Assembly: GCF_016745505.1 (NCBI RefSeq)
Contig: NZ_JAERUC010000206.1
Location: forward strand, 62,001-126,000
Length of the DNA: 64,000 nucleotides
Source: Streptomyces silvae
Lineage (GTDB): Bacteria; Actinomycetota; Actinomycetes; Streptomycetales; Streptomycetaceae
Direction of reading: 5' to 3'
The notes beneath the pieces were generated by a model. The model searched no databases, was not told the DNA's origin, and saw only the letters and a list, made by a program, of their open reading frames with translations. The translations under genes and the position numbers were made by a program. This document shows, piece after piece, positions 18,120 to 62,776 of the stretch (its first letter is position 1; every line of letters starts with the position of its first letter).

Positions 18120-18955
18120 GCGCCTGGCTGCCCGTCGCCCCCTGCACCCCGCGCGAGTGCGCACACCACGAGGGCGCCAGACGTCCGCCCGCGCACGCCG
18201 TGGCGCTGCTGACCGCCGGATGCGCCCTCACCTTCCTCGGGGTGCTCTGCGTGCCCGCCGTCCTGCTGCTGGGACCGGCCCACCGCGACCTGCTGATCCG
18301 CCGGTGGGCCCGTGCGGTGGTGCGGGCCTTCGGCGTACGCGTACGGGCCACCGGGCAGCCGGTGGAGCGGGTGCGGCCGCCGGCGGGCGAACTCGTCGTC
18401 GCCAACCATGTGTCCTGGCTGGACATCCCGCTGGTGGCCTCCGTGCTGCCCGCCCGGATGGTCGCCAAGAGCGAGATACGGAACTGGCCGCTCCTCGGAC
18501 CGCTCGCCGCGCTCGGCGGCACCCTGTTCATCGAGCGGGACCGGCTGAGGGCCCTCCCGCAGGCCGTGGGGGCCCTCGCCGGGGCGCTGGCCTCCGGGGC
18601 GCGGATCGCGGTGTTCCCGCAGGGCAGCACATGGTGCGGCCGGAGCGGCGGCGGCCCGTTCCGGCCCGCCGCCTTCCAGGCGGCGATCGACGCGGGATCG
18701 GCCGTCCGCCCCGTACGCATCACCTACCGGACGGCGACGGCGGACGCGGCGGGAGCCGCCGCGTTCGTCGGGGACGACCCGCTCGCCGCATCGCTGTGGC
18801 GCGTGGTGACCGCCGCCGGGCTCACCGCCGAGATCCGGGTCCTGCCCCCGGTCCACGCGGCGGGTGAGCCCGGCCGGCGGGCGCTGGCGCGGGCGGCTCA
18901 GTCCGCCGTCGCCAGCGACAGCGCGAACCTGCCCGCCGTGTCCGTCCACCACTGA
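18116..18955 (+). CDS. olsA: OlsA-like lyso-ornithine lipid O-acyltransferase (PlsC family)
   Basis: The 279-residue protein begins with a membrane segment (AVALLTAGCALTFLGVLCVPAVLLL). PlsC motifs follow: NHVSWLDIP (block I, HX4D), LGGTLFIERDR (block II), FPQGSTWC (block III) and VRPVRITY (block IV). Block III reads FPQGS where most relatives have FPEGT, losing the usual Glu. Coupling to olsB supports the second acylation of ornithine lipid. The last 58 bp overlap the 3' end of egtD on the other strand. Confidence 0.82.
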   Translation: MSAWLPVAPCTPRECAHHEGARRPPAHAVALLTAGCALTFLGVLCVPAVLLLGPAHRDLLIRRWARAVVRAFGVRVRATGQPVERVRPPAGELVVANHVSWLDIPLVASVLPARMVAKSEIRNWPLLGPLAALGGTLFIERDRLRALPQAVGALAGALASGARIAVFPQGSTWCGRSGGGPFRPAAFQAAIDAGSAVRPVRITYRTATADAAGAAAFVGDDPLAASLWRVVTAAGLTAEIRVLPPVHAAGEPGRRALARAAQSAVASDSANLPAVSVHH

Positions 18956-29490: not shown

Positions 29491-29632
29491 GCCCGCGTAT
29501 CGCTCGCCCGCGCTCCGGCCACGTCGGCAGTGTTCGGTCCGCGGTGCAGCGATCCCACATTCTGGACGATGTCTAACCGGTCCGTGAGATGCGTGAGATC
29601 GTTTCGGCGCCCGCACCCGTCGCGCGGCCTTG

Positions 29633-29704
29633 CCACGAGGGGACCTGCGACACCGTGCGGGACCGTCGGCCCTCCAGGCCGACGGCCGCACTACGCCCTC
29701 GTGG
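29633..29704 (+). promoter_or_regulatory. Structured 5' leader (candidate cis-regulatory RNA) of the transporter gene
   Basis: Nested perfect helices occur just before the ATG at 29718. P1 is CCACGAGGG (29633-29641) with CCCTCGTGG (29696-29704). It closes an asymmetric internal loop (29642-29654 and 29692-29695). Inside it GTGCGG (29655-29660) pairs CCGCAC (29686-29691). After a GA bulge, CCGTCGGCC (29663-29671) pairs GGCCGACGG (29677-29685) across a 5-nt loop. Twenty-four base pairs in 72 nt end 13 nt before the start codon. I cannot match it to a riboswitch class I know. Confidence 0.55.
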
Positions 29705-29717
29705 GAAAGCCCCAGAG

Positions 29718-31145
29718 ATGTACGCTCCCACCACCGGACCCTCCCAGGCCCCGTCGCAGTCCCCGGCCGGGACCGCACCCGCCAACTCGCGGTCCCGCGT
29801 CCTGATCGCCAGCCTCATCGGCACGACGATCGAGTTCTACGACTTCTACGTCTACGCGACCGCCGCGGTCCTGATCTTCCCGAAACTCTTCTTCCCGAGC
29901 AGCGACGCGACGACGGCCCTGCTCTCCTCCTTCGCGGTCTTCGGCGCGGCGATGGTCGCCCGCCCGATCGGCGCGATCGTCTTCGGCCACCTCGGTGACC
30001 GGCTCGGCCGCAAGGGCACCCTCGTGGCCTCGCTGCTCACGATGGGCATCGCCACCTTCCTCATCGGCGTCCTGCCGACGTACGCGCAGGTCGGCTGGGT
30101 CGCCACGGCGCTGCTGGTGCTGATGCGCCTCGCCCAGGGCTTCGCGCTCGGCGGGGAGTGGAGCGGCGCGGCCCTGGTCGCCACCGAGAACGCACCTGCC
30201 GGGAAGCGTGCGCTGTGGGGCACGTTCCCGCAGCTGGGAGCCCCGCTCGGGTTCATCATCGGCAACGGCCTCTTCCTGATCATCGGGGCGCTGCTGCCCT
30301 CCGCGGCGGGCGCCGACCCCTCGCAGCCGTCCGAAGCCTTCCAGAGCTGGGGCTGGCGGATCCCGTTCCTGTTCTCGGCCGTCATGGTCGCGATCGGTCT
30401 GTGGGTACGCATGCGCCTGGTCGAGTCGCAGGTCTTCGCGAAGACGCAGGAGACCGGCAAGGTCCGCAAGCTGCCGCTGGCCACCGTCTTCCGCCACCAC
30501 TGGAAGCAGCTGGTCCTCGGCAGCTTCGCGATGCTGGCGACGTACGTCCTCTTCTATCTGATGACGACGTTCTCGCTGAGCTACGGCCGTGCCGCCGAGG
30601 ACGCGGATGTCCCGGGTCTCGGCTACAGCTACACCACGTTCGTCCTGATGATGATCTTCGGTGTGCTGTTCTTCGCCGCGTTCACCCTGATCTCCGGCCC
30701 GCTCGCGGACAAGTACGGCCGCCGTAAGACCCTCGCCTGGGTCACCGTCGGCATCATCGTCTTCGGCCTCGTCTGGGTGCCGCTGATCAACCTGGGCACG
30801 CTCGGCGTGGTCCTGTGGCTGGTCCTCGGCTTCACCCTGATGGGCACGACCTTCGGCCCGATGGGCGCGATGCTCCCGGAGCTCTTCCCGACCAGCGTCC
30901 GCTACACCGGCTCCGGCATCGCCTACAACGTCAGCTCCATCCTCGGCGCGGCCGTCGCCCCGTTCGTCGCGGTCGCCCTCTGGGAGGCCGGCGACGGCTC
31001 CCCGTGGCTGGTCGGCGTCTACCTCTCCGTGATGGCGGTCCTCACCCTGACCGCTCTTCTCATCGGCAAGGAGACGAAGGACGTCGCCCTGGACGAGGGC
31101 GAGGTCCCGGCGGCCCCCGCCCGGACCGAGGTCCCGTCCGCCTGA
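29718..31145 (+). CDS. MFS transporter, metabolite:H+ symporter (MHS) family
   Basis: The 475-residue protein has 12 predicted membrane segments. [24 protein letters not shown] is the MHS family start. [19 protein letters not shown] is the loop 2-3 motif, and [35 protein letters not shown] and [15 protein letters not shown] are further family blocks. Relatives move dicarboxylates, shikimate, proline-betaine or citrate with protons, so the substrate is open. It has a weak ribosome site and a 72-nt nested hairpin just upstream. Confidence 0.9.
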
Positions 31146-31279
31146 CGCGGACCTGTTGGCGTGGCAGGCAACGGTTTCCGTGCGGAGCGGCGTCCGGCTC
31201 CGCGAGAGCGTGCGTCGGACGGGACGTACGTTGCTTGCCACGGCTCCGGGTGTATGCCCGGGGACAGGCGTGCGCGATC

Positions 31280-46282: not shown

Positions 46283-50248
<3,966 letters not shown>

Positions 50249-50255
50249 CACGGGG

Positions 50256-50298
50256 ACGGGCAGGGCCGTTCCCGGCGCCCGGGAACGGCCCTGCCCGT
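50256..50298. terminator. Bidirectional terminator between GH2 and dehydratase genes
   Basis: Arms 50256-50275 and 50279-50298 pair perfectly over 20 bp around CGC. This is the strongest hairpin in the window. Confidence 0.9.
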
Positions 50299-50301
50299 GG
50301 C

Positions 50302-57993: not shown

Positions 57994-58051
57994 GGACTCC
58001 CGTCCGAAGGCACTCTTAGCCGGTCCCGTCCGGGGGCCGGGTGCACGAAGA

Positions 58052-58081
58052 GGGCCCCGACACGCGTGCGTGTCGGGGCCC
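58052..58081. terminator. Bidirectional terminator after the alcohol dehydrogenase
   Basis: GGGCCCCGACACGC and its exact complement form a 14-bp stem with a 2-nt centre, between convergent dehydrogenase and TetR genes. Confidence 0.85.
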
Positions 58082-58096
58082 TTCACGTGCGAGGGG

Positions 58097-61781: not shown

Positions 61782-62776
<995 letters not shown>

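Follow-up and report, generated by a model that had tools for sequence, protein, structure and literature searches.

A GC-rich leader RNA before a YhjE-type transporter gene in Streptomyces: a plausible, at best modest control element

In a 64,000-nt stretch of Streptomyces silvae DNA (contig NZ_JAERUC010000206.1 of assembly GCF_016745505.1, forward-strand positions 62,001 to 126,000; hereafter the window, from whose first letter all positions are counted), the gene for an MHS-type transporter related to E. coli YhjE is preceded by a GC-rich structured 5' untranslated leader (~29600-29717) that occurs in part of Streptomyces. The leader had drawn attention for a single strong hairpin, and when it was folded whole and compared among orthologs, the pairings retained somewhat more often than expected were those of two other helices, PA and PB. 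We favour tentatively, at a little under an even chance, the reading of this leader as a means of tuning translation or the stability of the mRNA. The features on which the analysis turns are the following.

29610-29616 (+), 5' arm of PA, CCCGCAC, pairing with 29655-29661
29621-29629 (+), 5' arm of PB, CGCGCGGCC, pairing with 29641-29649
29633-29641 (+), 5' arm of the outer helix (9 bp), CCACGAGGG, within the PB loop and complementary to 29696-29704 beside the ribosome-binding site
29641-29649 (+), 3' arm of PB, GGACCTGCG
29655-29661 (+), 3' arm of PA, GTGCGGG, of which 29655-29660 (GTGCGG) doubles as the 5' arm of the middle helix (6 bp)
29661-29662 (+), two-base bulge of the first-described hairpin
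29663-29685 (+), P3 hairpin, 9 bp with a 5-nt loop; its stem is the inner helix, CCGTCGGCC/GGCCGACGG, 29663-29671 with 29677-29685
29672-29676 (+), terminal loop, CTCCA, 5 nt
29686-29691 (+), 3' arm of the middle helix, CCGCAC
29696-29704 (+), 3' arm of the outer helix, CCCTCGTGG
29703-29709 (+), putative ribosome-binding site, GGGAAAG
29718-31145 (+), MHS-type MFS transporter, 475 amino acids, 54% identity to E. coli YhjE

The initial annotation had described three nested helices of 9, 6 and 9 bp with a two-base bulge and a 5-nt loop, and all of these were found to be present at 29633-29704, with 13 nt between the outer helix and the ATG at 29718. Folding of the whole leader (29595-29720) gave a minimum free energy (MFE) structure of -61.9 kcal/mol, in which PA encloses PB (29610-29661) and is followed by P3; the outer and middle helices were not part of it, and the first-drawn fold, when forced, reached -56.0 (~6 kcal/mol worse). 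As the middle helix uses the 3' arm of PA, these two helices compete, and since the 5' arm of the outer helix sits in the PB loop, the outer helix would form either as a pseudoknot with PA/PB or in their place. Whole-leader folding was carried out for 12 of 20 leaders; the MFE structure contained PA, a PB-like helix and P3 in L002, L006, L118 and L123, and the outer helix beside the ribosome-binding site instead in L003, L004, L117, L125 and L130. An alternative helix, PX, formed by the PB 3' arm with the side of the ribosome-binding site, scored well on the covariance model (CM) alignment only and was not adopted.

Retention of these pairings was assessed against a null in which the tree and the number of changes in each column are preserved. 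In an out-of-sample comparison, with structures derived from the window sequence alone and applied to 14 leaders from outside clade A, to which the window belongs, and not used to define them, pairs of PA/PB held more often than under the tree null on both the sequence-only MAFFT alignment (0.79 vs 0.74, p 0.035) and the CM alignment (0.80 vs 0.75, p 0.032). For P3 the corresponding values were p 0.20 (MAFFT) and 0.08 (CM), and for all helices of the MFE structure together, p 0.12 and 0.055. On the same leaders the first-drawn hairpin did no better than the null (0.77 vs 0.76, p 0.37, MAFFT; 0.79 vs 0.77, p 0.24, CM); the shape as drawn is not kept in related species and is not supported. The comparison of orthologous leaders that the initial annotation had suggested left its own hairpin unsupported and favoured PA/PB weakly to moderately.

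With 19 sequences, a four-helix model drawn up post hoc on the same data kept more paired cells (0.90 vs 0.82, p 0.001) and more double changes (196 vs 82, p 0.01) than the tree null, the middle helix giving p 0.035 and 0.036 in that test. Cognate arms also paired better than swapped ones, kinship being ignored, for PA (p 0.0012), PB (p 0.0010) and P3 (p 0.022), with p 0.20 for the outer helix, 0.06 for the middle helix and 0.05 for PX. Shuffle counts, likewise blind to kinship, favoured both models, the four-helix one more and the first-drawn hairpin a little. Leader L007 was omitted from alignment A1 but is present in A2 and A3, and percentages for P3 do not count gapped cells in three sequences where this hairpin is short. 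Changes on both sides of a pair that leave it intact were seen (A3 columns) at 20-67 and 21-66 in PA, at 31-55, 32-54, 35-51 and 36-50 in PB, at 75-93 in P3, and at 41-116 and 43-114 in the outer helix. Taken together, support for the PA/PB plus P3 fold is weak to moderate, and there is none for the first-drawn hairpin.

The outer helix is strong in two subclades only. In clade A all 53 of its 53 cells are paired, and in clade D 26 of 36 pairs hold; five clade-B leaders have lost 7 nt from its 3' arm, and several other leaders have a disrupted middle helix. The mean duplex energy of the stretch beside GAAAG follows the same clades, at -19.6 kcal/mol in A, -14.7 in D, -2.8 in B and -7.2 in C.

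The transporter was found at E <= 1e-200 in 30 of 392 genomes of the genus, and five further loci, including L039 and one plasmid copy, brought the Streptomyces ortholog set to 35 (L037 and L038, on the same contigs as L004 and L130, were excluded before counting). A homologous long leader is present in 20 of the 35 (CM R1, 59-129 bits), and the other 15 have a short leader (13), a truncated one (L039) or an unrelated one (L151). Between the ribosome-binding site and a promoter that is conserved, the long leader is thus an insertion that an ortholog may or may not carry. A CM search of 101 genomes returned only the seven orthologs above 26 bits, and at the eight of nine weaker loci (21-25 bits) that were inspected no transporter of this family was nearby; 37 homolog loci from other actinobacteria gave nothing above 20 bits. 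The L039 leader (S. ruber) resembles the long leader minus its middle and 3' part, with GCGAGGAAGACC remaining before the start, and by eye the L151 leader appears to carry two other hairpins, with one TAG within its match.

The strongest rival, a distinct possibility though clearly under an even chance, is that the leader is passive: hairpins are to be expected of 74% GC DNA, the sequence would be inherited with the gene and drift, and the strong hairpin would be an accident of the strain. The following observations point this way or weigh against a regulatory role. A scan of all possible stems against the tree null found no significant stem, the best being PA (p 0.23 and 0.17), and the first-drawn hairpin did not exceed that null. 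Mean folding z for the 20 leaders was only -0.96, compared with -0.35 for upstream sequence and +0.23 for coding sequence. Leaders were about as similar to one another as fourfold-synonymous sites were (identity 0.88 against 0.84 in clade A, 0.71 against 0.66 between A and B, 0.71 against 0.82 between B and C; L165 omitted), so that constraint on the sequence is weak. Fifteen of 35 orthologs lack the leader, which makes it dispensable, clades B and C have a weak outer helix or none, and the arm-swap and shuffle tests take no account of relatedness.

The strength of the first-drawn hairpin is also less exceptional than was supposed. The 85-nt piece carrying it has an MFE of -45.9 kcal/mol and a z of -3.84, with none of 200 dinucleotide shuffles equally low, which bears out the initial annotation in part; but 628 of 12,784 window 85-mers (4.9%; both strands, step 10) reach -45.9 kcal/mol, so the claim of rarity was too strong. 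Five of 900 random 85-mers matched its z or went lower, from which several such pieces are expected per 64 kb, and in a 270-nt context the z was only -1.45. As a local fold, the 9+6+9 bp hairpin is uncommon without being rare. Within the window, the 85-nt pieces that fold most strongly lie at 50216-50300 (-), 58011-58095 (+) and 18806-18890 (-) and, at -61 to -63 kcal/mol, fold well beyond the -45.9 kcal/mol of the leader hairpin.

A purely passive leader sits less easily with the arm-swap result (p ~0.001 for both PA and PB), with the pairing of the combined model above the tree null, and with the excess of PA/PB pairs out of sample. Under the control reading that we tentatively prefer, the more conserved fold would place the tandem hairpins PA/PB and then P3 ahead of the ribosome-binding site; in certain lineages, that of the window included, the strand in the PB loop may pair instead with the stretch beside the ribosome-binding site, forming the outer helix, which would lower translation. 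Competition between the two folds, we infer, would tune translation start or mRNA stability, perhaps in response to some signal. A regulatory role is plausible on these grounds, and at most the leader would be a control element of modest importance, specific to its lineage; it does not reach the status of an established riboswitch.

Upstream of the hairpins, two conserved blocks appear to form the promoter.

29553-29567 (+), promoter block 1, TCCCACATTCTGGAC, conserved and aligned to TCTCACATnnTG in orthologs
29584-29603 (+), promoter block 2, GTGAGATGCGTGAGATCGTT, conserved in orthologs

The two-block element TCCCACATTCTG ... GTGAGATGCGTGAGATCGTT (29553-29603), with a spacing of 18-19 nt, was found in 34 of 34 orthologs scanned (L151, with its unrelated leader, was omitted), scoring 19-30 of 30 compared with 13-16 in control coding stretches; block 2 has only one exact match in the genome. 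The element is likely to be the site of an unknown regulator, and transcription would start within block 2 (29584-29603) or just downstream. A start inside the stem, which the initial annotation had raised against its own hairpin, is thus probably not the case, as the putative promoter lies upstream. Against the NdgR motif, from the sites in Table 1 of PMC4340878, block 1 (TCCCACATTCTGGAC) scored 15.9 bits, second of 127,972 15-mers. Five of six clade-A orthologs scored 11.7-15.9 bits, with L005 at 3.5 at the aligned block, and outside clade A the aligned block scored at most 9.6 bits. Because the resemblance is confined to the window's own clade, possible NdgR control of this promoter is only a lead.

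The protein encoded downstream is homologous to E. coli YhjE over its full length (238 of 440 aligned columns identical), which bears out the earlier assignment of the gene to the MHS-type transporters; its TIGR00883 match, at 422 bits, falls slightly below the 443-bit cut-off. YhjE is described as an importer of L-isoleucine and L-valine (PMC12708883), and by this kinship the Streptomyces transporter would be predicted to carry branched-chain amino acids. Of the YhjE substrate-path residues given in PMC12708883, T43, P55, N178, Y265, S271 and M359 are kept in the alignment and T273, T276 and V290 differ; N77, named in the text of that source, clashed with the sequence numbering and was excluded. 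GAAAG or a close variant stands ahead of the start codon in the aligned orthologs. Directly 3' of the gene, an imperfect inverted repeat seen by eye (CGTGGCAGGCAACG / CGTTGCTTGCCACG, 31160-31173 and 31229-31242) is possibly a terminator.

Among 13 Streptomyces genomes and the window, no gene neighbourhood common to all was found. An elongation factor G-like gene adjoins the transporter in five Streptomyces loci (L156, L157, L162, L164 and L165, where it is annotated fusA). In 17 of 93 clustered loci, all of Microbacteriaceae (L045, L057, L069, L087, L095-L097, L099-L103, L105, L106, L113, L115 and L116), the transporter homolog lies downstream of, and on the same strand as, a gene that we take from its sequence, not from a family search, to be ribH; what we likewise take to be ribBA is present in 22 loci. 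A flavin mononucleotide (FMN) riboswitch, considered on account of these rib genes, was set aside, the scan of 40 of 78 loci yielding only tRNAs.

Kinship with an isoleucine and valine importer (PMC12708883), competing pairings that extend to the ribosome-binding site, and the existence of another Streptomyces candidate RNA, the livJ motif, before branched-chain transporters (PMC11109978) would all suit a metabolite riboswitch that masks the ribosome-binding site of the importer, its most plausible ligand being a branched-chain amino acid. We nevertheless regard this as unlikely, and give no better prospects to a Streptomyces-specific two-state leader that would respond to branched-chain amino acid status by exchanging PA/PB for pairing of the PB loop beside the ribosome-binding site (as a pseudoknot or masking stem), thereby controlling the YhjE-type importer. 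The leader changes at a near-synonymous rate and has few invariant unpaired columns, with no strongly conserved unpaired core of the kind expected of an aptamer; it is confined to a single gene in part of one genus, and 15 of 35 orthologs manage without it. The initial annotation knew of no riboswitch class of this shape, and accordingly none of 4227 Rfam families matched the window at gathering score. The best match at E up to 10 was one of 11.8 bits on the opposite strand, a scan of five homologous loci gave no leader match, and the literature searches that were made listed no paper dealing with it.

It is quite unlikely that the inverted repeats work as operator sites in DNA and not as RNA: the adjacent promoter blocks, conserved with and without the leader, do resemble protein-binding DNA, but they stop upstream of the hairpins, and the hairpins drift yet keep their pairs, which a base-reading protein would not require. 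Control by a leader peptide or T-box is very improbable and already largely refuted, for although ATG-xxx-GAG-ATC-GTT (Met-x-Glu-Ile-Val) can be read by eye in several leaders, upstream open reading frames (uORFs) of at least 6 codons, with a stop before or at most 60 nt after the start codon, occur in only 7 of 19 leaders examined (L165 omitted), none is common to all, leaders of close relatives differ in length by 1 nt, and the Rfam scans gave no T-box match.

If regulatory, this leader would add one more structured 5' untranslated region to the few described before Streptomyces amino acid transporters, and the kinship with YhjE supplies a testable substrate for the transporter. There is also a lesson of method, in that a striking local hairpin in 74% GC DNA may be peculiar to one sequence, and the structural model changes once the leader is folded at full length together with its orthologs.

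Among known systems, the translational T-box before ileS in Actinobacteria, as described in PMC1262725, likewise has a hairpin that sequesters the Shine-Dalgarno box, but the leader here has no T-box match. The LEU element before leuA in Actinobacteria (PMC1262725) combines a pseudoknot with an alternative hairpin, the two sharing a base stem in which the Shine-Dalgarno box lies; unlike it, the present leader has no uORF common to the 19 examined. By its description in PMC11109978, the dauA motif of Streptomyces (STAS transporter) is also a genus-restricted leader that includes the ribosome-binding site, but it forms a three-stem junction and precedes another gene family. The livJ motif, presented in the same source as a strong riboswitch candidate in Streptomyces, shares with our leader its place before a branched-chain amino acid transporter gene (a predicted one in our case) and a ribosome-binding site in or beside a stem, and differs in preceding LIVBP ABC-transporter genes (PMC11109978). 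At this genome's six PF13458 loci no match to our leader model exceeded 10 bits, which is only an indirect comparison with livJ. Membership in livJ, dauA or LEU is not shown for this leader, and these three are its nearest described RNAs.
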